From contig AWVY01000017.1 of NCBI GenBank assembly GCA_004143605.1, forward strand, positions 1-49,683: DNA of 49,683 nt, read 5' to 3'. A program made the translations under genes and the position numbers. The notes under the pieces were generated by a model. It saw only the letters and a program-made list of their open reading frames with translations, ran no database searches and was not told the DNA's origin. Positions 1 through 15,260 of this stretch are shown one piece after another (position 1 is the stretch's first letter; each line of letters opens with the position of its first letter). The stretch comes from Desulforamulus aquiferis. GTDB taxonomy: Bacteria > Bacillota > Desulfotomaculia > Desulfotomaculales > Desulfotomaculaceae.

Positions 1-1
1 C

Positions 2-29
2 GAATATAGGTAGTTTCTCGACAATCTGG
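2..29 (+). repeat. Dispersed 3'-end element, copy 1
   Basis: The 17-base core GAATATAGGTAGTTTCT is at 2-18 and is followed by CGACAATCTGG. The same core occurs at 23262-23278 and, on the other strand, at 38536-38520. Each copy is followed at once by an intrinsic terminator hairpin. The gene it belongs to lies before the window, so its upstream context cannot be judged. Confidence 0.7.
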
Positions 30-54
30 GCCTCCCATTAATGGGGAGGCTTTT
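30..54 (+). terminator. Intrinsic terminator of the gene left of the window
   Basis: GCCTCCC at 30-36 pairs with GGGAGGC at 44-50 and is followed by TTTT. It ends a plus-strand gene outside the window and faces the convergent dehydrogenase-like gene. Confidence 0.7.
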
Positions 55-108
55 CACTTGCAATCCAAGGATTTATTTTAAGGAGGTAGCCTTAGTGGCG
101 TAGACAGC

Positions 109-1232
109 TTAGGAAACAGTTTTACTAAACAAGGATACTAGGTGGTCCAGCTTGGTATCCCGGGGGTTTGTTCTGCAATGCTGACATTCTAGGACCTTTT
201 GAGATAGAATTTCTATGAGCATGGGGATGTCTTGGGAATTAAAGGATGAGGGAAGGTCAATATCACTAATTAATTTAGCAACACCATCCACTGATTTTAG
301 TGCAGCCTCGTTAATAGGTAAATCACTAACCTTCTCTCCAAAACATTTGGCAATATTAACAAATTTATCTGGACAGGCCATGGCATTGTATTTCATAACC
401 CTTGGCAAGATAACTGACCAGGCCTTTCCGGCGGCAATTTTGCTATGATTAGCTAAGGTTGTAGTCATGGCAAATACATTTCCAAGGCCAGAATTTGCTG
501 AGCCAAGGGCGGCATATAAGCTGCATTTTGTACAGCAGTGGCCGACTCCAAATCCCGCCGGTTTGCCACAAAACGGCGCAGATTTTTGGCTGTGAGCTCA
601 ATTGCCTTGAGATTCAATATGTCTGTTAGCTCATAGCTGCCTAAAGAAACATAGCCATCTATGGCTATAGATAAAATCTGAAGACCAGTTTGCCCTGCCA
701 TTGTTGCATTCAGTACTTGAAGCATATAGGGGTCCATGATAACCAGCTTAGGTGTTGGAACCCTGTCCATAATAATTGTTTTATTGGATAAATCATCTGT
801 AATCACAGACCAATTATGAAACTCGGAACCTAGACTTGCATTGGTTGGCACAGCAATGACAGGAGCCTCCTGGCAGGTTGACTCGCCAGGATTTTTTGTA
901 AGTGATGAAATAACCTTGGCGGTATCAATGGCACTACTTCCACCTACGGCCAGCAGAATGTCACATTCTTCATTTCTGTATTGATTTAATCCCTGTTCCA
1001 CTATCTCAATGGTGGGACAGCAGTCCAATTCATCGAATATGACATAGGCTAAATTTTCTCTGCTTAGAGACTCCAGTATATCAACAAGCAGTCCGGATCT
1101 TTGGCTTTTTTTGTCAGTGCATATGAGGACAACTTTACCAGCATATTTCTTTACTTGTTTGCCAAGGGTCTTTCTGGTGTCAATTCCGGCCAAGATTTTA
1201 CAAGGAGTGTTAAAAAGATAGTCTTTAAACAT
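109..1232 (-). CDS. Iron-type alcohol dehydrogenase homologue lacking the metal ligands
   Basis: The fold is that of family III (iron-dependent) alcohol dehydrogenases, about 374 residues after repair of one break near 510, where a C is missing on the plus strand. The NAD-binding glycine motif GGSSAIDTAK and a PTNASLGSE segment are present. Aligned to E. coli FucO, the four metal ligands (Asp196, His200, His263, His277) are all replaced: TGxDALTH becomes TGLQILSI, VHGMAH becomes VFAMTT, and the TPHG histidine becomes Ala. NAD binding therefore looks kept while the metal site is lost. The start is the ATG at 1232, behind GAGGTG, rather than the upstream in-frame ATG. It has its own sigma-54 promoter and activator sites, which ties it to the isethionate genes. 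It might be a metal-free oxidoreductase or a sensor protein; its function is not known. Confidence 0.85.
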
Positions 1233-1271
1233 GATGTCACACCTCAATAGTTCTTACTTGATTAAAATAAA

Positions 1272-1287
1272 AGCAATTTTTATGCCA
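1272..1287 (-). promoter_or_regulatory. Sigma-54 promoter of the dehydrogenase-like gene
   Basis: Read on the minus strand this is TGGCAT-N5-TTGCT, with the -24 GG and -12 GC twelve bases apart. It is the same as the promoter at 3202-3217. It lies about 40 bases before the ATG at 1232. Confidence 0.85.
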
Positions 1288-1363
1288 AAACAAAAAACCT
1301 TATATTGCTTGAGGAATTTAGAAATAAATACACTTAGGATGCGAATTTACAACAAAAACAAAG

Positions 1364-1410
1364 AAAAAACCGTTGCACAACAGCAACGAGGTTGCTGTTG
1401 TGCAACGGTT
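1364..1410 (-). terminator. Perfect 20-bp-arm palindrome: activator terminator
   Basis: Arms 1368-1387 and 1391-1410 are perfect inverted repeats with a 3-base loop. On the minus strand the hairpin is followed by a T run (1369-1364), and it begins 4 bases after the activator's stop codon, so it should terminate that gene. The same DNA holds the activator-site dyads described separately. Confidence 0.8.
1372..1406. promoter_or_regulatory. Upstream activator sites 1 and 2 (GTTGC-N6-GCAAC twice)
   Basis: Two dyads GTTGC-N6-GCAAC sit at 1372-1387 and 1391-1406, with centres 19 bp apart. The same dyad pair occurs at 3020-3056. They lie about 100 bp upstream of the sigma-54 promoter at 1287-1272, the normal place for enhancer sites of a bacterial enhancer-binding protein. 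The likely ligand is the Fis-type helix-turn-helix of the adjacent activator. Confidence 0.75.
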
Positions 1411-1414
1411 AAGA

Positions 1415-2825
1415 CTAAATTAAATTATATCTTTTCATTTTCCTGAAGATGGTTGATCTATCCATATGAAAAACCTTTGCTACGCTAGGGACACTTCCAT
1501 GTATATCCAGAGCTCTTTTTAATAGATCCTTTTCCACGTCTGCCATAATTTCATTAAGGGTTTGTTCGCCAACGTTAACCGATGTAGGCATCAAAACTTT
1601 ATCAAGATTAGTGTCCTGGTTGCCCATTAAATAATTGGGTAAATCACTAATTCCCAACAGTTCTTTTTCCTGAGTAACCACAAGACCTTGAATTAAGTTT
1701 TCCACTTCTCGGACATTTCCCGGCCATTTGTAATTCTGCAGGTAATTTTTAACTTCGTGGGTTAATGTAAGCTTTTTCTTATATTTTGTGTTGTATTTAT
1801 CCAAAAATATTGGACAAGGGGAGTAATCTCTTCTTTGCGCTCCCTTAAAGGAGGCAAGTCCAATACTGCAACCCTTAAACGGTAATAAAGATCGCTTCTA
1901 AATGTACCATTCTTAGAGGCCTCATCTAGATTTCTATTGGTGGCAGCGATAAAACGGACATCTACCTTTTTTACCTTGGTAGAACCAATTCTCATTACCT
2001 CTTGATCCTGTAATACCCTTAATAGTTTGGCCTGCATGGCCAGGGGCAGCTCGCCGATCTCATCAAGAAATAGGGTTCCTTTATCGGCCATCTCAAAATA
2101 GCCGGGTTTTCCTTTGGCATTAGCTCCGGAAAAAGCACCGGGATCATAGCCAAATAATTCAGACTCGATTAGGTTTTCCGGGATGGTAGCACAATTAATT
2201 TTGAAAAAAGGCTCCTCTTTTCTCTGACTGTGCTCATGGATTTTTCTAGCAAAAACATCTTTGCCCACACCGGTTTCCCCGAGAATTAAAACGGTTGTAT
2301 CTGTGGCCGCAATACGCTGGAGCAATTGCATAAGCTTAATCATTTTAGGACTTTCAATGATGGTATTTTCATTTTTATGTTTTTTTGAAAACAAATAATG
2401 AATTTCCTGATGGTATTTTTCAATTAACTCTGCCTGGGAAGATATTTGTTCCTTAAGCTGTGATAGGACAGTAACATCCCTTACATAGGTCACTACATAG
2501 GCTACCTTGCCATTTTGGTCAAATACCGGATAGCCATTTAATATTACCTTACGTCCCTCTTTAGTTTTTTGAACTGAGGTCTGGGGTTTTCCGGTTTTAA
2601 CAACAATAGGATTAAGGGCGGTGTCGTAGACACCCTCCTTGGTTAAATCGTGTACCAGGCGACCCAATAGATTTTCTTTTTTAAGACCTGTTAACTTTTC
2701 ATAGGTGCTGTTTACTTTGATGGTTTTTCCCTTGGCATCACTGATATATATGCCATCAGAAAAACGTCCAAAATGTTATCTAAAAATGCTTCTATCTCAT
2801 ATGCCTGTGCCTTTACTAAATCCAT
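1415..2825 (-). CDS. Sigma-54-dependent activator (PAS, AAA+, Fis HTH)
   Basis: This is an NtrC-family enhancer-binding protein of about 470 residues after repair of two breaks in five-base A runs on the plus strand (near 2760 and 1803). An N-terminal PAS-like sensor domain (about residues 10-130) is followed by the AAA+ domain with Walker A GETGVGKD (about 183-190), the sigma-54 contact loop GAFSGA (about 230), Walker B GTLFLDEIG (about 250) and a C-terminal Fis-type helix-turn-helix (LKRALDIHGSVPSVAKVF). The contact loop has Ser where most family members have Thr. The start is the ATG at 2825 behind GGGGAGGTG. It lies between two units that both have -24/-12 promoters and matching dyads, so it very likely controls both. 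The signal sensed by the PAS domain, perhaps isethionate or redox state, cannot be read from sequence. Confidence 0.93.
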
Positions 2826-3019
2826 GGAAAGCACCTCCCCTGGAAAGTTATTCATTGTCTGTTGCAGGACATTATTTGTTAACTAAATGTATTTTAACAT
2901 GATATAATCAGTTTGTTCGCGAAAATACGACAAAATTGTACAAATATTTATTTTTATTACCATGTAGCGCCCTTAAAATAGTAAAAATGATAAGTTCTTT
3001 CACATTAGTGTTTAATTTG

Positions 3020-3056
3020 GTTGCAGCAACGCAACTGGATGTTGCTGCTTTGCAAC
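3020..3056. promoter_or_regulatory. Upstream activator sites 3 and 4 (GTTGC-N6-GCAAC twice)
   Basis: Dyads at 3020-3035 and 3041-3056 have centres 21 bp apart, two helical turns. They match the pair at 1372-1406 in their conserved bases and lie about 165 bp upstream of the sigma-54 promoter of the TRAP/islAB operon. They may also let the activator control its own divergent gene. Confidence 0.75.
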
Positions 3057-3075
3057 CGGGGCTTGTGACGTTTGT

Positions 3076-3125
3076 ACCAATGTCGGGCCTTGATTTTGCT
3101 GAAATGTCTCCTGTGTGACATTGGT
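3076..3125. repeat. Inverted repeat ACCAATGTC / GACATTGGT
   Basis: ACCAATGTC at 3076-3084 is an exact inverted repeat of GACATTGGT at 3117-3125, with 32 bases between. A further GACATTG follows at 3128. It lies between the activator sites and the promoter, so it could be a second regulator's site or a DNA-bending site. Its role is unknown. Confidence 0.45.
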
Positions 3126-3201
3126 GCGACATTGCAACCTGAACGGGCCAGGTGTATACAATGTTAAGTTTGTTTTAAGGTTTCATGGGTGTTTGAAAGC
3201 T

Positions 3202-3217
3202 TGGCATGGTTATTGCT
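3202..3217 (+). promoter_or_regulatory. Sigma-54 promoter of the TRAP-islAB operon
   Basis: The sequence is TGGCAT-N5-TTGCT, with the -24 GG at 3203-3204 and the -12 GC at 3215-3216. It is identical in its conserved parts to the promoter of the dehydrogenase-like gene. The leader to the first ATG (3350) is about 120 bases. Confidence 0.88.
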
Positions 3218-3307
3218 TTAATAAAGGTCAAGGTAGTACGAAGAATGAAAGGAACAATGAGGGGGTGGGTTAGCCCAAAGGACTTTTATTAAAGTTTACT
3301 GTTATAA

Positions 3308-4383
<1,076 letters not shown>

Positions 4384-4396
4384 TTAGGAGCTAGCT

Positions 4397-4428
4397 CTAT
4401 ATGGGAGGGCTATGGTCCTCCCATATAG
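4397..4428 (+). other. Intercistronic hairpin after dctP
   Basis: CTATATGGGAGG at 4397-4408 pairs perfectly with 4417-4428 around an 8-base loop, and no T run follows. Such hairpins after a binding-protein gene usually protect its mRNA or give partial termination, so more receptor than permease is made. Confidence 0.65.
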
Positions 4429-4485
4429 GAAAACATGATTTGGATTACAGGTTAATTAATAAGCAACTACAGAGAGGCGATGCCA

Positions 4486-6380
4486 ATGGCTAATCAAAAG
4501 AATGCTAATACGGTGCCACAAAGCCCAACTGACCCCAAGCCTAGAAACTGGTTGCGGTGGTTGGATGACAATCTGGAAAAACCCATCCTTTTAATAGGGA
4601 TGTTGTCAATAATATTAATCATTACCTTTCAGACCTCTTACCGTTATATAATCACCCATTTATATGATGGTTCCGGTGCAGCTACCTGGACAGAGGAATT
4701 AGCCCGCTATATCTTTATTTGGATTTCTTATCTGGCCATTCCATTGGCGATTAAGGCAGAAGCAACATTAGAGTTGACATTATCTACGACCGCTTACCGG
4801 AACGTATTCAGAGGATTTCTTGGATTGTTGTTGATGTATGCTTCCTGGCCCTTAGCAGTGTAGTGTTCTTTAAGGGGTTAGATCATATAGAAATGATGCT
4901 GAATTTACCCCAAACTACACCAGCTTTACAGATTCCCTATTTTATTCCTTATTTAATACTTCCCATTGGTTTTGGACTAATCAGTTTAAGGGTCATACAA
5001 GATTTATATAAGCAGGTAAAGGAATGTGGACTTAAAGATACAGCCTTTGGAATCATATTTTGTCTAGCCTTAGCTTCACCCCTGCTATTTGGTTTTGAAA
5101 TGGATGCTTTAGCCTGGCTGTTCGGTTACTTTGCTATCTTTTTAGTTATCGGTGTTCCCATTGCAATTGCTTTAGGCTTATCCGGTCTTGCTACCATTAT
5201 TGGTGCAAAGACTTTGCCTATTGATTATGTGGCACAGTTAGCATTTACCTCTATAGATAGTTTTCCCATTATGGCTATACCCTTCTTTATTGCAGCGGGT
5301 GTCTTTATGGGGGCAGGGGGACTTTCTAAAAGATTACTGGCCCTGGCTGACGAGCTGCTTGGCTCCCTGTATGGTGGTATGCACTGGCAACTGTTGCAAC
5401 CTGTATGTTCTTTGCCGCCATCAGCGGTTCTGGTCCTGCCACCGTTGCGGCAATTGGGGCATTAACAATTCCGGCTATGATTCAAAGAGGTTACGATAAG
5501 CACTTTGCGGCAGCTCTGGTAGCCTGTGCCGGTGCCATTGGCGTAATGATACCACCCAGCAACCCCTTTGTGGTGTACGGTGTTTCAGCAGGCTTCCGTT
5601 GGCAAGCTGTTTATGGGCGGTATCGTTCCTGGACTTTTAACTGGGGCGGTATTAATGGTGATAAGTTATCTCTACTCTAAAAAGAACAACTGGAAAGGTG
5701 AGGTGCGGGAACGTAGCTTAAAGACCTTTGGACGAGCTTTCTGGGAGGCAAAATGGGCCTTAATGGTTCCTGTCATTATCCTTGGAGGTATCTACGGCGG
5801 GCTAATGACACCAACCGAGGCCGCAGCAGTTTCTGCATTCTATGGGCTAATAGTTGGCGTATTTATCTATAAGGAAATTAACCTTAAAAATATTACCCAG
5901 TGCTTTATGGATGCCTGCAGTACCTCAGCTATCGTAATTGTACTGATGGCTATGGCAACAATATTTGGGAACATAATGACCATTGAACAGGTACCTAATA
6001 AAATTGCCTCTTTCATTTTAAGTATAACTGAAAGTAAAATTTTTATTTTGCTGATGATCAACGTGTTGTTGCTGGTGGTTGGTACCTTTATGGAAGCCCT
6101 GGCAGCCATCGTAATCCTAACCCCCATACTATTACCTATTGTAATTCAGGTAGGTGTGGATCCAATTCATTTTGGTGTAATCATGGTCGTAAACTTGGCT
6201 CTAGGCTTCATCACTCCCCCCGTTGGTGTTAACCTGTTCGTGGCCAGCGGTGTTGCTAAACTTAAGATGGAGAATATCTCCAAGGCTGCTTTACCATTAT
6301 TATTCGCAATGATTGTTGTGTTACTGCTTGTTACTTATATTCCTGAGATATCAATGTTTCTGCCCAGCTTATCTAAATAA
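4486..6380 (+). CDS. dctQM: Fused TRAP transporter permease DctQM
   Basis: The small membrane subunit (DctQ, about the first 190 residues, with WTEELARYIFIWISYLA) runs without a stop into the large subunit (DctM, from about DALAWLFGYFAIFLVIGVPIAIALGLSG), giving one protein of about 632 residues with roughly 16 membrane spans. Three breaks need repair: near 4843 (a T missing), near 5380 (a G missing) and near 5597 (two bases missing or one added). No ribosome site precedes the DctM part, so a real fusion is likely. The ATG at 4486 is better spaced from GAGAGG than the ATG at 4480. With DctP it forms a sodium- or proton-driven uptake system, probably for isethionate. Confidence 0.88.
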
Positions 6381-6402
6381 CCTGTCCAAGAATACAAATG
6401 AA

Positions 6403-6469
6403 TTTTGGCGACAGTTTCTAACCATCTAACTGACCTAATTACTCGCAGGGGTAGAAACTGTGCCCAAAA
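6403..6469 (+). other. Long intercistronic stem-loop before islA
   Basis: Arms 6403-6420 and 6452-6469 match at 16 of 18 positions (TTTTGG..ACAGTTTCTA) around a loop of about 31 bases. No T run follows on the plus strand, so it looks like an mRNA stability or processing element between the transporter and the lyase rather than a terminator. Confidence 0.6.
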
Positions 6470-6526
6470 AATAATAAGCAAATAATTAAAGATTTAGCTA
6501 ATCATCTAAATTAGGAGGATGAAATA

Positions 6527-9010
6527 ATGACAACTTGTTGTACTGTATTATCACCCCACGAACAAAGAATTCAGGAAGAAATGTTAGGTAAAGAGGATTT
6601 TAAAAAGGGTAGGGAAAGGATTTATAAAATTCTGGAGAGCTTTCACACCCAGCGTCCCATCATTGATGTGGAAAGGGCCAAATACTTACTGATTCCATGA
6701 AGCAAACTGAGGGGGAACCCTTAGTTCTAAGATGGTCCAAAGCCCTACTGCACATTGCAGAAAATATGACTGTATATATCGATGATAGCAACTTGCTGGT
6801 AGGTAGAGGTGGCCAGCCCGGTAGATACGGTATGCTATTCCCCGAATTAGATGGTGATTTCCTTGACGTAGCAATTGAGCAGCTGCCAAGCCGTGTTGAA
6901 TCTCCCTTCAACATATGTCAGGCTGACGCTGATATTGTAATCAATGAAATTGCCCCCTACTGGAAAGGGAAAACCTTCCATGAAAAGCTTGCCGAGGCAC
7001 TACCAAAGGACACCCTAAGGTATACCTATGATCCTAAGGATCCCCTTAAATCCAGATTCATTGTTAACGAAACTGCTTCATTCCGCTCTTCTATTCAGTG
7101 GGTACACGACTATGAAAGGGTATTAAAGAGAGGCTTCAAAGGCATTAAGGAAGAGGCCCAAGAGAAGCTAGCCGCCCTTGATCCCCTAAGCCCTGTTGCC
7201 AATATGGAGAAGGCACCTTTCCTCCAGGCGGTGATCAATGTATGTGATGCCATCATTCTATGGGCAAACAGACATGCCAAATTAGCTGCGGAGCTTGCTG
7301 AGAAGGAAGCTGATGCAACTAGAAAGCAAGAATTAATGGAAATTGCAGAAATCTGCGCCTGGGTGCCTGAAAATCCTGCCCGAAATTTCCGGGAGGCAGT
7401 TCAATCCCAGTGGTTTACCCAAATGTTTTCCAGGATTGAGCAAAAAACAGGTACTATTATATCCAACGGACGTATGGACCAGTACCTATATCCATTCTAC
7501 AAAAAGGATATCGAAGAGGGTCGCCTGACTGAAGAAGGTGCCGTTGAATTGCTGGAGTGCATGTGGGTGGCTATGGCACAATTCATCGACCTGTATGTTT
7601 CCCCAACTGGCGGTGCCTTTAACGAAGGCTATGCTCACTGGGAAGCGGTAACCATTGGCGGTCAGACACCAGATGGAAGTGATGCCACCAACGAACTAAC
7701 CTACTTATTCCTGAAGTCCAAGCAGGAGTTCCCGTTAAACTACCCTGATCTGGCAGCCAGAATTCATGCCCGCTCACCAGAACGTTATATGCATGAGGTA
7801 GCTCAGACCATCAAAGAGGGTTCCGGCTTCCCAAAATTAATCAACGACGAAGAGGTTATTCCCCTATTGCTGTCCAAGGGTGCAACCTTTGAAGAAGCCT
7901 ATGACTATGCTGTATCCGGTTGCTCTGAAGCCAGAATGCCCAACAGAGACACCTTTACCAGCGGATGCCCTTATATTAACTTCGCAGCAGCAGTAGAAAT
8001 GGTTCTACACAATGGAAAGATGCTCCTGCATGGGGATGAGGTTATTGGTCTGCAAACTGGAGACCCAAGGGAATTTAGTACCTGGGAAGAGTTTTGGAAT
8101 GCTACTTAGCCCAAACCACCGAATTTTTAAAGCAAGCCTTTATCCAGCAGCATGTTATCATAAATTTACGTCCCAAGCATTTTGCCAGCCCACTGGTTCA
8201 TCCCTGCATGATCTGTGCATGGAAAACTGCTTGGATCTCCATACACCTGTAATACCCGGTGGTATTGATTTAGGATATTTTGAGCTGATGGGTTATGGAA
8301 CTGTGGTTGATTCCCTGGCCGCTGTTAAGAAGCTGATTTTTGAAGATAAGAAGTTAACCATGGCCCAGTTAATTGAAGCATTAGAATGTAACTTTGAGGG
8401 TAAGGAAGCAGTTAGACAAATGCTGCTTAATGCTCCCAAATACGGCAACAATGATCCCTATGTGGATTCCCTTGCTAAGGACGTTGACCGTGAAGCCCTT
8501 GAGTTTACCAAGAAATATTCCAAGGAGTTAGGTGTACATTTTGACCTGAGACTGGTGCCCTTTACTTCCCATGTGCCCTTTGGCAAGGTGGTCAGTGCTT
8601 CTGCCAACGGCAGAAAGGCATATACTCCATTAGCTGACGGCTCTTCCGCCTCCCACGGTGCAGACGTCAATGGTCCAACTGCTGTATTGCTATCTAACTT
8701 TAACTCTAAAAACTACAACTTTAGGGAGCGTGCCTCCAGACTGCTAAACATTAAGTTCACACCGTCTTGTGTAACCGGGGAAGAGGGCACGAGAAAACTG
8801 GCCTCCTTTATTAGAACCTGGTGTGATCTTAAGCTATGGCATCTCCAGTTCAACATTGTTAATAAGGAAACCCTACTGGCAGCCAAGAAGGATCCCGACA
8901 AATATCGTGGGCTTATCGTAAGGGTCGCCGGCTATAGCGCTTACTTCTGCGATTTGTCTCCAGATTTACAGGATGACATTATTGCCAGAACAGAGCACAG
9001 CACCATCTAA
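6527..9010 (+). CDS. islA: Isethionate sulfite-lyase (glycyl radical enzyme)
   Basis: The enzyme cleaves the C-S bond of isethionate (2-hydroxyethanesulfonate) to acetaldehyde and sulfite. After repair of three breaks (near 6685 A, 8096 T, 8190 T) the protein has 828 residues. The thiyl-radical Cys466 and catalytic Glu468 lie in SGCSEAR, and the glycyl radical Gly803 lies in RVAGYS. Arg187, Gln191, Trp372, Arg676 and Phe680 fall exactly two residues before Arg189, Gln193, Trp374, Arg678 and Phe682, the substrate pocket of characterised IslA/IseG as I recall it. This makes the assignment much stronger than a generic pyruvate-formate-lyase-like call. The start ATG at 6527 follows TTAGGAGGAT. 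The TRAP genes upstream and the activase downstream complete the unit. Sulfite would serve as electron acceptor. The close relative HpsG (dihydroxypropanesulfonate lyase) is the main alternative. Confidence 0.93.
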
Positions 9011-9028
9011 ATACAAATAGGTTATCCT

Positions 9029-9060
9029 CTGTAAGTCCTGCTGTTTCGCAGGGCTTACAG
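9029..9060 (+). other. Hairpin between islA and islB
   Basis: CTGTAAG-T-CCTGC pairs with GCAGG-G-CTTACAG around a short loop. CCCATTTTGTT follows, which is a poor T run, so termination would be partial and the lyase would be expressed above its activase. Confidence 0.6.
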
Positions 9061-9085
9061 CCCATTTTGTTAAGGAGGGGATTTA

Positions 9086-10014
9086 GTGAGTGCAGCCGGT
9101 AATATAGATAGAAACAAAAGTGGTTATATATTTAATATTCAACGATATTCAGTACATGATGGGCCGGGCATTAGGACTATTGTATTTTTAAAGGGCTGTC
9201 CCTTGAAGTGCCGGTGGTGTGCCAACCCTGAATCTCAGCATCTTTTGCCCGAACTGGCCTTTAATAATAACAAATGCATCGGTACAAAGGAATGCAAAAT
9301 GTGTATTGAGGCCTGTGAATTGGGTGCCATTAGGGAGAATACCAGTGAAAAGGTTGAAATAGACAGGGCAATCTGTAATAACTGTGCCAGATGTGCTGAC
9401 ATATGTCCCTCCAGGGCTTTAAACATGTATGGCAAGCCCATGACTGTAGAGGAAGTTCTAAAAGTTGTCGAAGAAGACAGTATGTTTTATACTAGATCTG
9501 GTGGGGGAATTACCTTAAGTGGTGGGGAACCATTATCCCAGGCTGACTATGCCTGGGAACTGCTGAAGGAAGCAAAACGCAGGAGGATTAATTCAACCTG
9601 GAGACCTGTGGCTATGCAGACTGGGATAGCTTAAACAAAATTAGTCAACAGCTTAATACCGTGCTTTATGATATCAAATGCATTAATAATGATAAGCATA
9701 AGGAGTATACCGGAGTCTCCAATGAATTAATACTTAACAATTTTGTAAAGCTGTGTGAGGCATTTCCTAACCTTTCCATTATGGTTAGAACTCCAGTAAT
9801 ACCGGGTTTTAATGATACGGAAGAAGATATTAAAGAAATTATTGACTATATTAGGCAATTCCCAAATGTAGACTATGAGCTGCTGCCCTACCATCGTTTG
9901 GGACAGCCCAAATATGAATATCTAGGGAAGGAATATCCCATGCCAGAAGTGAAACTGGTTGATGAAAAAATGAAAAGCCTAAAGAAGCTGGTGGGAGAGT
10001 TCTTTGGGAAATAG
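9086..10014 (+). CDS. islB: Isethionate sulfite-lyase activating enzyme (radical SAM)
   Basis: This radical S-adenosylmethionine activase of about 309 residues would install the glycyl radical on IslA. The SAM-cluster motif CxxxCxxC is in GCPLKCRWCANP, after YSVHDGPGIRT. A ferredoxin-like insert follows with two 4Fe-4S Cys sets (CIGTKECKMCIEAC and CNNCARCADICP), as in activases of the eliminating glycyl radical enzymes, and then SGGGITLSGGEPL. One base (a C of CCC) is missing near 9596; with it the usual ETCGYADW segment is restored. The start is the GTG at 9086 behind AAGGAGGGG. Its place directly after islA and the same pattern in known isl operons support the pairing. Confidence 0.92.
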
Positions 10015-10037
10015 TAATTAAATGGGGGAAAGAGGCA

Positions 10038-10385
10038 TTGGAGAAGACGAAGGTTTTATTTCATGTTTCAGAAAATGAAGTATGGCCAAAGGCATTAACA
10101 AATATTCAAAACTTCCTTAAGGATGTAAGTGATAATCAGGTGGAGATCGAGCTGGTGGCTAATGCTGGGGCTGTAAATTTTTATTACGATAATGATAAGG
10201 TAAATTTACATGAGCAAATGAGCAGCTTATCCTCCCGGGGTGTTAAATTCGCAGCCTGTCGTAATGCCCTTCAGGCTCATTCCTTAAAGGAAGAGCTTCT
10301 ACCTGAATTTGTTCAGGTAGTTCCGGGAGGAATAACGGAGATCGTAAAAAAACAAAGTATGGGCTTTATTTATATAAAGCCTTAA
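10038..10385 (+). CDS. DsrE/DsrF-like protein
   Basis: This small intact protein of 115 residues is of the DsrE-like family (COG1416 type). It has the alpha/beta pattern with LVANAGAVNFYYDN, and one conserved Cys in KFAACRNALQ followed by VVPGGITEIV. Relatives take part in sulfur transfer or are uncharacterised. The start is the TTG at 10038 after GGGGGA. It is the last gene before a terminator, in the same operon as isethionate lyase, so a role in handling the sulfur released as sulfite is plausible but not shown. Confidence 0.8.
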   Translation: MEKTKVLFHVSENEVWPKALTNIQNFLKDVSDNQVEIELVANAGAVNFYYDNDKVNLHEQMSSLSSRGVKFAACRNALQAHSLKEELLPEFVQVVPGGITEIVKKQSMGFIYIKP

Positions 10386-10400
10386 AGGATTTGCTGGTCG

Positions 10401-10429
10401 AGCCGAGGATATTTATCCCCGGCTTTTTT
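10401..10429 (+). terminator. Terminator of the isethionate operon
   Basis: AGCCGAGGAT pairs with ATCCCCGGCT (one mismatch) at 10401-10424 and is followed by a six-base T run. It separates the isethionate operon from the hydroxyproline genes. Confidence 0.8.
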
Positions 10430-10486
10430 GATTTAATGATACAGTATACTAAAATAACATTGCTTAGAATTGTAACCTTTTCAAGG

Positions 10487-10492
10487 TATAAT
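10487..10492 (+). promoter_or_regulatory. Possible -10 box for the hypD unit
   Basis: TATAAT lies about 85 bases before the activase start. No good -35 box was found at the usual spacing, and no -24/-12 element is present, so this unit appears not to share the sigma-54 control. Confidence 0.35.
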
Positions 10493-10575
10493 AAAGGGAT
10501 AGACAAAAGTCTATTGCAGACTGTAGAAAAAGATACAAGGGTTTTAATAATCCCGAGCAGCGACATGAGGTGCAT

Positions 10576-11477
10576 ATGGAAAAAGCAACCATCTTTAATA
10601 TACAAAAGTTTTGTGTTCATGATGGACCTGGCATTCGCACAACGGTTTTCTTTAAGGGTTGTCCCCTAAACTGCCTGTGGTGCCACAATCCTGAGAGTCA
10701 GCATTTCCAAAGAGAAATACTGTACAATCAAGAAAAGTGTACTGGCTGTGGCCAATGCCTGCAGAGCTGCCTGTACCAGGCAATTAGGTTAGATGGAAAA
10801 TACATAGTTCAGGAAAAGAAAAAGTGTGTCCTATGCGAAGCGTGTATCGAACACTGTATCAATAATGCCAGGGAAGTTTCGGGAAAAGAGTATTCCCTGA
10901 AAGAGGTTCTAAATGAGATAGAAAGGGATAGGCCATTTTATGAGCAGTCGGGAGGCGGGGTAACCTTCTCTGGGGGTGAGGCCCTTTGCCAGATAGACTT
11001 TGTTACTGAACTTGCTAAGTTATGCAAAAAGAGAGGGATTTCTGTTGCCATAGACACCTGTGGTTATGTGCCTTTGAGAGCTTTGAGAAGGTGTTGCCAT
11101 ATGTGGATTTATTCCTATATGACTTAAAGTTAATGGATGCTTCCCTTCATAAAAAGTATACGGGACAGGATAATCAGCTAATATTGGAGAATTTTAGAAA
11201 GCTCTCCGCCAGTGGGGGGAACATAAATTTAAGAATACCATTGGTAGAAGATATAAGCTCCCAGGATATTAACCTAAAAGCAACCATAGATTTTATCCAG
11301 GGAATGAATATATCCTTGATTAACTTGCTACCCTATCATTCCATTGGAAGTAATAAATACACAAAATTAAACAGGAAATATCAGGGGGAATCCTTTAAAG
11401 CGCCAACGGAACAAAGATTGGCAGAAATCAGCCAGTTATTTAGTAAAAAAGGTTTTAATATTAAGATTGGGGGTTAG
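10576..11477 (+). CDS. Hydroxyproline dehydratase activating enzyme (radical SAM)
   Basis: This is a second glycyl radical enzyme activase of about 300 residues, placed before hypD. It has CVHDGPGIRTTVF, the SAM-cluster motif in GCPLNCLWCHNP, two 4Fe-4S sets (CTGCGQCLQSC and CVLCEACIEHC) and SGGGVTFSGGEAL. One base is missing near 11082, in CCTTTGAGAG; the repaired frame reads DTCGYVPFESFEKVLPYVD. The start is the ATG at 10576, five bases after GAGG, rather than the GTG at 10570. It is clearly different from the IslB-type activase 1.5 kb upstream, so each radical enzyme here has its own activase. Confidence 0.88.
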
Positions 11478-11481
11478 AACT

Positions 11482-13855
11482 TTGGACAGGGGCATGAATG
11501 AAAGAATAAAAAGGCTGAGGAATCAGAGTTTAACCGTTGAGCCCAGCATATCCATTGAAAGGGCAAGGTTGGTAACCGAAGCTATCAAAGGTATGCCGGT
11601 ACGGTGGAAACACCAATCCTAAGAGCCTTAACCTTTAAACATATCTTAGAAAACCAAACCCTTTGCATTAATGAAGGAGAACTTATTGTGGGGGAAAAGG
11701 GGGAGGGACCACAATCAGCTCCAACCTACCCTGAATTATGCTGCCATACCCTGGATGATTTTGAAGTTATGAACAACAGGGATAAGATCTCTTTTAAAGT
11801 TAGTGAAGAAAGTAAAACCATCCAAAGGGAAAGAATAATACCCTATTGGCAAAAAAGATCCCTACGGGAACATATCTTTAAGCAGATGACCCAGGAGTGG
11901 AAGGATTGCTATGAAGGTGGTATCTTTACCGAATTTATGGAACAAAGGGCACCGGGTCACACGGTAGCAGATGGGAAGATGTATCAAAAGGGCTTTTTAG
12001 ACTTTAAAAAGGAAATTGAAAAATCTATTGAAGGGATAGACTACCTTAATGATGGGCAGTCCTATGAGAAAAAAGCACAATTAGAGGCCATGAAAATCTG
12101 CTGCGAAGCCATAATTATTTATGGCAAACGCTATGGTGCTTTAGCCAGGGAGCTGGCAGAAGAAGAGCAGGACCCCAGAAGAAGGGCGGAATTACAGGCT
12201 ATTGCTCAAAATTGTGAGGTAGTACCGGCCCATAAACCAGAGACCTTTGCCCAGGCCATTCAGATGTATTGGTTTGTTCATCTAGGGGTAACCCTGGAGC
12301 TTAATAATTGGGACTCCTTTAGTCCGGGACGTTTGGATCAACATTTAAATCCCTTCTACCAAAAAGACCTGGAAGCAGGAATATTGACTGAGGATCAGGC
12401 AAAAGAGCTTTTAGAATGCCTTTGGGTAAAGTTTAATAACCAGCCGGCCCCTCCAAAGGTTGGAATTACTTTAAAGGAAAGCGGGACCTACACAGACTTT
12501 GCCAATATCAACAGCGGTGGGGTAAAATCCGACGGCTCAGATGGTGTCAATGACGTATCCTTTATAATATTAGACGTAATGGATGAAATGAAATTGCTTC
12601 AGCCCAGCTCAAATGTTCAGATTAGCAGGAAGACACCTCATCGATTTATAAAAAGGGCCTGCGAGATATCACGAAAGGGCTGGGGACAACCGGCCCTATA
12701 TAATACAGATGCCATTATACAGGAGATGTTAAGGGTAGGAAAGGATATTGTTGATGCAAGGGAGGGCGGGGCCAGCGGCTGTGTTGAGACCGGGGCCTTT
12801 GGTAAAGAGGCCTATATTTTAACAGGTTACTTTAACCTGCCTAAAATCCTAGAGCTTACCTTAAATGACGGTTTTGATAACAGAACAGGAAAACAACTTG
12901 GCTTAGCCACCGGAAACGCCGTAGATTACAGATCCTTTGAAGAACTATTGGAGGCATTTGCAAAACAGCTGAATCACTTTGTAGATATCAAGATCAAGGG
13001 CAATCATATCATAGAAAAATTGTATGCAGCCATATGCCTTGCCCATTTCTATCAATCGTTGTAAGTGACTGCATCTTAAGTGGAAAGGATTATAATGCCG
13101 GGGGTGCTAGATATAACACCTCCTATATTCAAGGTGTAGGCATTGGAACCCTCACCGATTGTCTTTCCTCTATTAAATACAACGTTTTTGAACAAAAGAG
13201 ATTTTCCATGGCAGAATTGCTGCAGGCATTGGCAGATGATTTTGAGGGTCATGGGTACGTTCATAATAGCGTTCTCAATAAAACCCCTAAATATGGCAAT
13301 GATGATGATTACGCCGATCAATTGATGCTAACGGCCTTTAATGCATTTTATGAATCTGTTAACGGTCGGAAAAATATGAAGGGTGGAACCTACCGTATTG
13401 ATATGCTGCCAACCACCTGTCATGTCTACTTTGGCTCAGTAACGGGGGCTACCCCCAATGGTCGAATTGCAGGCAAGCCACTTTCGGAGGGCATTTCCCC
13501 AGAACAGGGTTCAGATAGGCGTGGACCAACTGCAGTGATCAAATCCGCTGCCAAGATGGATCACCTTCGCACCGGGGGAACACTCTTAAACCAGAAATTT
13601 AGTCCTTCGGTGGTGGCTGGTGATGAAGGGTTAGAAAATATGGTTTCCCTGGTACGAACCTATTTTAATATGGACGGACACCACATTCAGTTTAACGTAA
13701 TAGATAAAAGGACATTACTGGCAGCCCAGGAAAGACCCGAGGAATACAAAGACCTAATTGTAAGGGTGGCCGGTTACAGTGATCATTTTCATAATCTTAG
13801 CAAGGAATTGCAGGATGAAATCATCGCCAGGACAGAGCAGTCTTTTAGTTGTTAA
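11482..13855 (+). CDS. hypD: trans-4-hydroxy-L-proline dehydratase (glycyl radical enzyme)
   Basis: The enzyme dehydrates trans-4-hydroxy-L-proline to (S)-1-pyrroline-5-carboxylate, which proline reductase genes elsewhere would reduce to proline. After repair of two breaks (near 11590 and 13031) it has 791 residues. With the TTG start at 11482, behind GGGGG, its numbering matches Clostridioides difficile HypD as I recall it: Phe152 and His160 (FMEQRAPGH), Asp278 (NNWD), Cys434 and Glu436 (SGCVETG), Tyr450 and Thr645. The glycyl loop RVAGYS is near the C-terminus. Such agreement at every pocket position makes the call firm. No proC was seen in the window. It gives the cell a way to use collagen-derived hydroxyproline. 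Confidence 0.93.
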
Positions 13856-13857
13856 AC

Positions 13858-13893
13858 AAAAGGCCGGGAGTTATTGCATAAACTCCGGCTTTA
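13858..13893 (+). terminator. Terminator of the hypD unit
   Basis: AAAGGCCGGGAGTT pairs with AACTCCGGCTTT (small bulge), and the stem starts just after the hypD stop codon. The T run is weak. Confidence 0.6.
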
Positions 13894-13910
13894 GCCTTAC
13901 TTGGGATAGG

Positions 13911-15260
13911 TTAAGTTTTGAACCAATCAGATTGACTTTCATCCATCAAGACATCATCTGATACTATTTTTACCAGCACCCTGGTATTTGCATTAGCCGG
14001 AGGCTTTAGATATATGGTAAAGGTGGCACTGGAGCGGGGCTCCAGATTAAGGATATCAGAAATTTTTTGGTCATATACTTTGCCATTTCCTGCGTCTAGA
14101 GCTGCGTAGACTTTAGTATTGGCAGCCACAGCTGACCCATCATTATGAACTGTCACCTTTAGCTCAATTTGACGTGTAGTACCTGGTAGGTCCACTGGTG
14201 TGTTATGACCGGCTGGGGTATTAAGGGTAATATTTGGGCCTTGCGGTCTCTGTATTCATCTGGTATTTGTCCGATTTTCCAACCTGTGCCGGTGGTTTCT
14301 ACATAGTAATATTTTTCACCCTGAAATTCATAATAGACACCGGAAAGGTTTTCCCCTTTAACTCCCACGCCATATGGCAGGATCTCCGGGTAGCATAACT
14401 AAAACTACCCCGAAGTTCATTTCTTTAAGGATGGAGGCCAGCAGTATACTGGTATCTTCGCAGTCGCCATTTTGTTCTACCAGTGTTTCAAGGGGGTATC
14501 TGGCATACTGGTCATAGCCTTTGGAAGCGTTATCTGATATATATTTTAAATTTTGCACAAAGGAGACCACAAACTCTACTGTCTGGTTGGGCGAATACCC
14601 TTCCTGCTTTACCACTTCCATAAACTTGGCTGCTATCCTAGAAATAAACACGTCATCCACGGGATCTGTGACATAGACCGAATAGTCATTGGTAGGAATG
14701 CGTTTCAAGCCGGTGTAATAATCATAAGCCTCTTGGGGAATTTGCATCTGGTAGGTCCATTTTTTGCCCCCAAAGCTCCAAACAAATTCTCTATCAATGT
14801 TGTTTGCAATGGTTTCTAGGGAATTATCAATAATTTTTCTATTATTGGACGTAATGTTAATTGTTTGGCTGGTGGAATCCCAGTGGACCTCTGCACCAAG
14901 GGCTTCGCTGACAAATCTGAGGGGAACCAAGGTTCTTCCGTCTTGAATGGATGCGGGCACAGGTAGATCAACGGGAGCACCGTTTTTAAAGGCCACAGGA
15001 TGTCCTACTATAAGTAATGCTTCATAATCACCATTACGTGCAATAATGGTTTGGTTATAGCTGTTCCAGGTTACGCTGGCCCCCAGTGCTTCAAAAACAC
15101 CCCGTAGAGGAACCATAGTTGTACCCTGCTCTATCCTGGGAGGTACATCAAGACTTAGACGGGTTCCATCTACTATAACCGTTGGGGTACTGCCTCCTGC
15201 AGGTAAGCCAAGCATAATAATCAACAGCAGTGCAATGAGGAAAACAGGCCACTTTCTCAA
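13911..15260 (-). CDS. Secreted copper-amine-oxidase-N / transglutaminase-like protein
   Basis: The repaired protein has about 450 residues; bases are missing near 14378 and 14368 and near 14238. A signal peptide (MRKWPVFLIALLLIIMLGL) leads into two copies of the copper amine oxidase N-terminal repeat (TMVPLRGVFEALGASVTW and TLVPLRFVSEALGAEVHW). A transglutaminase-like core follows, with the likely nucleophile Cys in NGDCEDTSILL and a His in the repaired DPAHMAVGV. The tail, about 90 residues, looks like a beta-sandwich domain. It probably acts at the cell surface on proteins or peptidoglycan; the substrate is unknown. The start is a TTG at 15260 behind GAGGAGG. It is convergent with hypD. 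Confidence 0.8.

Follow-up and report, generated by a model that had tools for sequence, protein, structure and literature searches.

A conserved GTTGC-N6-GCAAC dyad and the predicted sigma-54 regulon of isethionate uptake and cleavage in Desulforamulus aquiferis

The stretch of Desulforamulus aquiferis DNA analysed here (assembly GCA_004143605.1, contig AWVY01000017.1, positions 1–49,683; 49,683 nucleotides, hereafter the window) carries near its start a gene for a putative sigma-54 activator, placed between an operon for isethionate uptake and cleavage and a dehydrogenase unit, and positions 1272–3217 hold the predicted promoters and palindromic sites (dyads) of both. The activator gene (1415–2835, minus strand, start approximate) encodes an IslR-like sigma-54 enhancer-binding protein with intact relatives in nine genomes. 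Its translated pieces contain an AAA+ domain (PF00158), a Fis-type helix-turn-helix (HTH_50/HTH_8) and the GAFSGA motif, a PAS domain is detected in the intact relatives, and the nearest named record in the activator search is Desulforamulus aeronauticus DSM 10349. The second transcription unit, on the same strand, is an iron-containing alcohol dehydrogenase gene (109–1247, frame broken near 468) with intact relatives in genomes G053 (locus L056) and G005 (L122); neither it nor these relatives passed an NCBIfam cut-off among the models listed, which included sulfoacetaldehyde reductase.

The plus-strand operon begins with dctP (3350–4383), for a TRAP substrate-binding protein of the isethionate type whose pieces match the L056 DctP at 75% and 69%, followed by dctQ and dctM for the TRAP permease (4480–6380; a single 640-codon open frame in L056), islA for isethionate sulfite-lyase, a glycyl radical enzyme (6527–9010), an islB-like activating-enzyme gene (9086–10014) and a gene for a DsrE-like small protein (10038–10385) that also adjoins islB in L016, L017, L054, L055 and L057. 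The assembly is indel-rich, and many long genes in window 1–14000 are split by frameshifts and open in relatives. The dehydrogenase, activator, dctP, dctQM, islA and islB frames are all broken here; since each is open in at least one relative, the breaks are read as assembly errors rather than as marks of pseudogenes. The sigma-54 gene of the same genome (PF04552 at G000:C2, 168 bits) is also frame-broken, with internal stops.

The dyad has the form GTTGC-N6-GCAAC, and all distances to promoters are measured from the dyad centre to the first G of the −24 element. Upstream of the isethionate operon, a −24/−12 sigma-54 promoter located by pattern scan (TGGCATGGTTATTGCT, 3202–3217, plus strand) is preceded by two distal dyads, GTTGCAGCAACGCAAC (3020–3035) and GTTGCTGCTTTGCAAC (3041–3056), centred 175 and 154 bp before −24, and by a proximal dyad with one mismatch, GGTGCGACATTGCAAC (3123–3138), centred at 72 bp and picked out by the dyad scan together with its geometry. 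The promoter of the dehydrogenase unit (TGGCATAAAAATTGCT, 1272–1287, minus strand), found by the same kind of scan and set in an arrangement that recurs in relatives, has dyads GTTGCACAACAGCAAC (1372–1387) and GTTGCTGTTGTGCAAC (1391–1406) centred 93 and 112 bp before its −24, and a weak proximal dyad (1338–1353, minus strand, two mismatches) centred at 59 bp, the weakest site of all, retained for its position. A preliminary description of this DNA had given the dyad pairs at 1372–1406 and 3020–3056, TGGCAT-N5-TTGCT promoters at 3202–3217 (plus) and 1287–1272 (minus), and centre spacings of 19 and 21 bp within the pairs; the four dyads (1372–1387, 1391–1406, 3020–3035 and 3041–3056) are all perfect, and the promoter coordinates and spacings are correct.

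Perfect dyads are rare outside this setting. The window holds four, against a shuffle mean of 0.03 and a maximum of 2 in 300 shuffles, and the whole genome (3.57 Mb) only seven. Two perfect dyads with 1–8 bases between them occur in just one of 398 genomes of the phylum, that of D. aquiferis, and there only at 1372–1406 and 3020–3056 (0 of 398 for the reversed-pattern control). At up to two mismatches the window contains 21 dyads where 15.8 are expected, so that the sites at 3123–3138 and 1338–1353 count through their position alone. The −24/−12 pattern, at up to one mismatch, is found three times in the window against 1.56 expected; such a match is by itself weak evidence there, to which conservation adds weight. 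A dyad is its own reverse complement, and a dyad in one arm of a hairpin forces a dyad in the other arm. The four perfect dyads are present, as had been counted, but the members of a pair are not independent: they are two or three independent events, not four, and the count had passed over the weaker dyads at 3123–3138 and 1338–1353.

Orthologues of the activator (identity of about 58% or higher, against 49% or lower for the next matches) occur in 8 of 113 genomes of the order, D. aquiferis included, and in genomes G208 and G431 of the phylum sample, ten in all; L016 and L017 are near-sisters and were counted as one lineage. The 450-bp flanks of the nine relatives contain 11 perfect dyads (shuffle mean 0.03, maximum 1; 200 shuffles) and 21 dyads with at most one mismatch (mean 0.24, maximum 2), distributed over six and seven of the nine relatives, respectively. 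When all 5-base palindromes with spacers of 0–14 were counted de novo in these flanks, with the window left out, GTTGC-N6-GCAAC ranked first with 11 sites; the best palindrome in any of 30 shuffles reached 5. The activator adjoins islA in the window, L016, L017, L054, L056, L057, L124 and L125, and not in G005 or G043. Among the relatives that keep this neighbourhood, perfect dyads are found in six of seven and dyads with at most one mismatch in all seven, which bears out the conservation expected of them. Searches by blastn with six intergenic regions (two each from the window and L054, one each from L056 and L057) against the other loci gave no match below E 0.05, and short ones only, so that retention of an unaltered ancestral sequence does not by itself account for the dyads. 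A relaxed pair pattern run over 14 genomes matched in 13 places, of which 11 are at activator-adjoining units or at extra units of G005 and G027 (control 0).

The dyad also recurs in another phylum. Seventeen Desulfobacterota islA loci were sampled (the 17 best of 20 islA-type matches, from 12 genomes, among which second-copy loci and near relatives are not independent). They contain 11 dyads with at most one mismatch in 12,156 bp upstream of islA or amidohydrolase genes, compared with 18 in 294,342 bp elsewhere (Fisher p 7e-9, with related loci treated as independent).

The position of the dyads relative to the promoters is conserved as well. A promoter search over 480 bp with a stricter pattern found none upstream of the activator in L056, L125, L122 and L123; a search over 620 bp with TGGA allowed found those of L056 and L125, giving 18 promoter units at the ten activator loci. 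In 15 of the 18, a dyad with at most two mismatches is centred 57–73 bp before −24, in fact at 59–63 or 69–72 bp (shuffle mean 0.12), and 11 of the 18 carry a dyad pair with centres 19–21 bp apart (shuffle mean 0.00, maximum 1); with the window and L017 removed, the counts are 11 of 14 for the proximal dyad and 8 of 14 for the pair. The proximal dyad, present at 15 of 18 promoters, is an element that the earlier inventory had missed. A proximal TTGC-N6-GCAA site and a strict promoter, searched as a single pattern, matched 13 times in the 113 genomes of the order, 7 times at activator-linked or extra units, and never in the control. By eye, the distal pair showed no helical phasing relative to the promoter; the proximal distances alone cluster.

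In a tree of 51 activators, the ten Bacillota orthologues and nine activators from Desulfobacterota islA loci form one 19-row clade with 100/100 support, outside which lie 24 Bacillota paralogues. The nine were taken from 14 Desulfobacterota islA loci with an activator match, and the tree was built from rows other than DVU2827 and Desulfovibrio alaskensis IslR. That the motif is unique to isethionate activators is ruled out by seven perfect dyads at 5 of the 24 paralogue loci (103,382 bp). GTTGC-N6-GCAAC thus appears to be the mark of a wider group of activators, and the claim that it belongs to the isethionate activator specifically does not stand, as it also flanks activators of other pathways. 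At three of the paralogue loci (L081, L083 and L085) a dyad pair about 20 bp apart and later a single site before a sigma-54-like promoter stand upstream of a gene that looks, by eye, thiolase-like. At a fourth, L022, the dyads precede a gene that looks like one for 4-hydroxybutyryl-CoA dehydratase, for which NCBIfam gives below-cut-off HpaB matches alone.

Two other accounts of the recognition were not kept. Assignment to the PrdR or NifA class, with TGT-N10-12-ACA sites, conflicts with the de novo search, whose top palindrome is instead GTTGC-N6-GCAAC; among NCBIfam models, the activator pieces score highest with PrdR, though below its cut-off. L122 and L123 have a His in the recognition helix, and the sites seen there lack the first-position G; as these two are sisters, the association amounts to one event at most. 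A single Arg-to-His change as the explanation for the lost outer G fails because paralogues with Ala or Pro at that position keep GTTGC.

The regulon had been described as a circuit of two units; one activator does lie between two outward-facing sigma-54 promoters that share the dyad, and more than two units are probable. The unit beside the activator other than the isethionate operon varies, being a dehydrogenase in the window, G053 and G005, an amidohydrolase in G006, G002, G008, G208 and G431, and TauE in G027. In D. aquiferis itself a third unit is predicted on another contig (G000:C38:36081–44400; L184 and L196), where a TauE-like gene, a predicted promoter with three dyads, and amidohydrolase, RnfC-like, EutQ, bacterial microcompartment (BMC) shell, aldehyde dehydrogenase-family and PduL-type genes follow one another. 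The dyads stand 254, 178 and 157 bp before TGGCATGATAATTGCG, a promoter missed by the pattern and read by eye, upstream of the amidohydrolase gene; one is perfect and the pair at 178/157 bp has two mismatches each. The pieces of this protein share 66 and 74% identity with the amidohydrolase adjoining the activator in L054, and we infer that the genes of this locus form one operon. IslA makes acetaldehyde (PMC6386719, in the part of the text available), so the locus fits an acetaldehyde-processing compartment as in Bilophila.

Further units are predicted in the relatives. In G027 a chemoreceptor gene carries the full module, with dyads at 162, 142 and 59 bp, which suggests that chemotaxis may come under the sulfonate activator in that genome (methyl-accepting chemotaxis protein gene, L189 1941–3808, G027:C20). 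In G005 the activator precedes a dehydrogenase-pair unit with sites at 144, 124 and 60 bp, and a second unit, a sulfolactate-type cluster, has sites at 144, 125 and 60 bp; the 16-kb stretch contains six TTGC-N6-GCAA sites in all, three per unit. The G043 activator (L123) sits in a C3-sulfonate-like setting. In L122 8609–15643 (G005) and in L123, the activator orthologues lie by sulfolactate-type genes whose best solved relative is L-sulfolactate dehydrogenase (2x06) and whose NCBIfam matches are below cut-off, and the sites read TTGCA-N4-TGCAA.

Taken as anatomy the circuit is real, and as function it is very probably so. We regard it as highly likely that these units form the regulon of an IslR-like one-component sigma-54 activator reading GTTGC-N6-GCAAC dyads, and the predicted binding of the dyads by the neighbouring activator is well supported by their conservation. 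Isethionate, or an organosulfonate related to it, is probably the signal that the PAS domain detects. The activator would bind at two kinds of place: a tandem dyad pair about two helical turns apart, mostly about 120–180 bp before −24, and, nearer to the promoter, a lone dyad at about 60 or 71 bp. Ring assembly, looping and promoter opening are established for the sigma-54 activator family, and here the bound dimers would likewise build the active ring, which would reach the sigma-54 polymerase in its closed state by looping and bring about promoter opening. The predicted targets are the TRAP uptake operon with islA–islB, the iron alcohol dehydrogenase and, probably, the distant amidohydrolase–microcompartment unit. 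Such a regulon would provide a defined and conserved DNA target for the isethionate activator in Bacillota, and would connect isethionate uptake and cleavage, in one genome, to microcompartment genes at a distance whose products could handle the acetaldehyde released by IslA.

Several observations weigh against this regulon, or against its extent. The spacing counts leave out the upstream flanks of L122 and L123, in which no promoter was found, and the range of 57–73 bp was set after the distances had been looked at. Three promoters depart from the geometry: the TauE promoter of L057 (G027) has no dyad, the nearest dyad to the downstream promoter of L054 is at 82 bp, and the downstream promoter of L056 has a single dyad at 50 bp. 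Six of the 13 proximal-plus-promoter matches and 2 of the 13 relaxed-pair matches lie elsewhere, and D. aquiferis itself gives no proximal-plus-promoter match because its proximal sites are imperfect; its third unit has no proximal dyad within three mismatches. The orthologues of G005 and G043 have TTGCA-N4-TGCAA, without the outer G. In G005 islA lies 400 kb from the activator, with no site nearby except one inside islA, also when scanned with TTGC-N6-GCAA, and G007 has islA and no activator orthologue, its perfect dyads near islA being inside coding sequence. Of the 17 islA loci from Desulfobacterota, eight carry at least one dyad at up to 450 bp from islA or the amidohydrolase gene and nine carry none there; of those nine, L139 (three perfect dyads) and L140 (three with one mismatch) carry dyads upstream of a dctP-like gene. 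Finally, the five paralogues with perfect dyads form a single five-row clade.

The dyad pair at 1372–1406 calls for separate treatment. It had been described as a pair of dyads, and it does consist of two perfect ones, which are at the same time part of a single terminator-like hairpin. Just after the activator stop codon, positions 1368–1410 (minus strand) form a perfect hairpin with a 3-nt loop and 20-bp arms, each built on one of the two dyads, followed by a T-run (TTTTCTTT); a 61-nt stretch containing it folds at −34.3 kcal/mol. A GC-containing 20-bp stem, a T-run and a position behind a gene are the hallmarks of an intrinsic terminator, all present here, and the element is probably the intrinsic terminator of the activator gene. 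Any two dyads already pair at 10 of 16 positions, so a tandem enhancer is a ready-made terminator.

Hairpin arms formed by dyads or near-dyads lie behind the activator stop codon in 6 of the 10 orthologues (window, L016, L017, L054, L056 and L124). In L056 one arm is three mismatches off the dyad, and in L054 the activator stop codon forms part of the stem. The letters of the spacers in the arms differ among the six, except that L016 equals L017, and yet they pair at 6 of 6 positions in five of them and at 4 of 6 in L124. The T-run is clear in five of the six and weak in L056. Elsewhere, L125 has a dyad pair in the same place that makes a poor hairpin without a T-run, L057 and L122 have hairpins without dyads, and L123 has no clear hairpin. 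The upstream dyad pairs of L056 and L057 also pair at 6 of 6 spacer positions, so such pairing is not exclusive to terminator-like hairpins; the T-run and the position after the stop codon are what distinguish the terminator-like pairs from the others. A hairpin with dyad or near-dyad arms and a T-run also precedes the amidohydrolase unit of D. aquiferis.

These observations bear on the best-surviving alternative, that the pair at 1372–1406 is the activator terminator only, its likeness to the dyad being a leftover or due to chance, and that the dehydrogenase promoter either takes its activation from the upstream sites or stands outside the regulon. The perfect hairpin and T-run directly behind the stop codon agree with it, as do L057, L122 and L123, three of the ten orthologues, which lack a dyad pair within 60 nt of the activator stop, and L056, in which one hairpin arm alone is within two mismatches of the dyad. 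Enhancer-binding activators act at a distance, so that a separation of about 1.7 kb need not prevent the upstream sites from serving both promoters. Against it stand the recurrence of dyad or near-dyad arms with differing spacer letters in six of the ten orthologues, the dyads outside any hairpin between the activator and the second promoter (L016 at 9436, L054 at 8827), and the dyads of L122 and L123, which lie farther down (144/124/60 and 129/63 bp), apart from the activator end. On balance we consider a terminator without enhancer function unlikely. The pair behind the activator gene, a hairpin in its letters, would have predicted enhancer and terminator functions together. We give about an even chance to the fuller proposal, in which one DNA element would stop the activator transcript and, when activator-bound, loop to the next promoter, and in which a module of three dimer sites, the proximal one at a favoured helical position, would be the usual enhancer for metabolite-sensing activators of a wider class. 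Nothing on enhancer–terminator overlap turned up in the sections of the literature searched. If real, the overlap would place two functions in the same letters of one bacterial intergenic region, with a simple evolutionary route to it.

The nature of the inducer depends on the glycyl radical enzyme, which could instead be a sulfopropanediol lyase of the HpsG type, with a C3 sulfonate as inducer. In favour of this, the NCBIfam model NF048011 (cut-off 1000) scores the L054 and L016 enzymes at 1601.6 and 1577.1 bits and the N-terminal piece from the window alone at 918, and the activator orthologues of G005 and G043 sit with sulfolactate-type genes. There is, however, no IslA model among the NCBIfam matches listed, and NF048011 seems broad enough to take in IslA. 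The best solved relatives are two IslA structures (5ymr and 7kq3), ahead of 6lon, which we take to be HpsG (1411, 1324 and 1239 bits). As far as the available text goes, 5ymr is the D. vulgaris IslA and Arg189, Gln193 and Arg678 are sulfonate-binding residues of IslA (PMC8473560). In the numbering of that paper, Arg189, Gln193, Cys468, Glu470 and Arg678 are kept here, as are Ile192 and Phe682: the window and L054 have Ile and Phe, as in Bilophila wadsworthia IslA, where 6lon has Leu and Ile. The DctP, too, is of the isethionate-binding type, the best solved relative of the L056 (G053) protein being the isethionate-binding protein 8t9t, with 480 bits against 180 for the next. An HpsG-type enzyme is on these grounds improbable, and the assignment of isethionate uptake and cleavage genes, as first proposed, is supported by the IslA residues and the DctP likeness to 8t9t. 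IslA-type proteins exceed the NF048011 cut-off by about 600 bits, so automatic names may call IslA a sulfopropanediol dehydratase.

Slightly less probable still is that the motif belongs to another regulator acting at these promoters. The dyad also flanks paralogous activators by the thiolase-like and 4-hydroxybutyryl-CoA-dehydratase-like genes (names given by eye), and G007, which has no activator orthologue, contains an intergenic dyad accompanied by a sigma-54-like site. Those paralogue loci were, however, chosen for holding an activator and are uninformative on activator-free dyads; the perfect pair occurs in no other of the 398 genomes; and the dyads track the activator, not islA, being found in G005 at the activator and at the second unit and not upstream of islA. 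Two details of G007 are recorded here: at L053 (G007:C1:2976000–2995500) there are a complete and an interrupted copy of islA, in a genome where no activator orthologue was found, and at L193 2072–2178 (G007:C1) an intergenic perfect dyad stands 84 bp before a sigma-54-like site. Long inverted repeats are frequent in mobile elements, but an origin of the pairs as a mobile repeat, or as a family of chance palindromes without a regulatory role, is scarcely credible, with four of the seven perfect dyads of 3.57 Mb lying here, spacer letters that differ from site to site and a promoter geometry that is kept; a mobile repeat was rejected on the genome-wide dyad and pair counts and a chance origin on the shuffle controls.

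The predicted module resembles several known systems. At glnAp2, nearer (governor) sites bind the same activator, NtrC. Tandem activator sites upstream of a sigma-54 promoter are common to glnAp2 and the present promoters, which differ from it in that the nearer site here is a single dyad about 60 or 71 bp before −24 (PMC4740811, the part available). The excerpts seen of a survey of Clostridiales describe 39 sigma-54 activator groups, with multiple sites mostly 100–250 bp upstream and the promoter consensus TTGGCATNNNNNTTGCT (PMC6615313). The activators here are like those regulons in having Fis-type helix-turn-helix activators beside their target operons and multiple upstream sites. Two of the groups, XanR (abfD) and XcaA (thl), resemble the genes beside the GTTGC-dyad paralogues, by gene names read by eye and not by motif letters, and the text examined contains no isethionate group (PMC6615313).

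In gut bacteria, the desulfonation of isethionate and taurine contributes to the formation of hydrogen sulfide, according to the available part of PMC6386719, and the sections of literature searched contain little on how isethionate desulfonation is regulated. The same source predicts islR as the regulator gene of the D. alaskensis G20 isethionate cluster, whose knockout abolishes growth with isethionate and not with sulfite, and in the part available gives no binding site, promoter type or regulon for IslR. The activator described here is likened to IslR as a regulator of isethionate genes from a different phylum, by role and not by sequence comparison (PMC6386719). In D. vulgaris, DVU2827 is a one-component sigma-54 activator whose predicted sites precede TRAP genes plus the glycyl radical enzyme gene DVU2824, and is thought to serve the amidohydrolase gene DVU2820 too, as a two-unit regulon (PMC4641369, the part available). 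This matches the present arrangement of a sigma-54 activator by a TRAP/glycyl-radical operon and an amidohydrolase, and differs in that the protein is called a pyruvate formate-lyase regulator, the likeness being one of description and not of motif letters (PMC4641369); from the operon content we infer that DVU2824 is the D. vulgaris IslA. The preliminary description had held that no binding motif for an isethionate activator was published. Sites had in fact been predicted for DVU2827 (PMC4641369) and islR named (PMC6386719), and the claim stands to the extent that the running text of the literature searched, apart from logos in figures and supplements, spells out no motif for such an activator letter by letter. 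In B. wadsworthia, islA–islB adjoin genes for an aldehyde dehydrogenase, shell proteins and a PAS regulator (PMC8667426, the part available); unlike there, the shell-protein locus of D. aquiferis is on another contig and is tied to islA through the predicted activator sites alone.

Beyond the isethionate operon, window 10570–13855 encodes a second glycyl radical enzyme with its activating enzyme; in NCBIfam the two match best the models for trans-4-hydroxy-L-proline dehydratase and for the activase of that enzyme.

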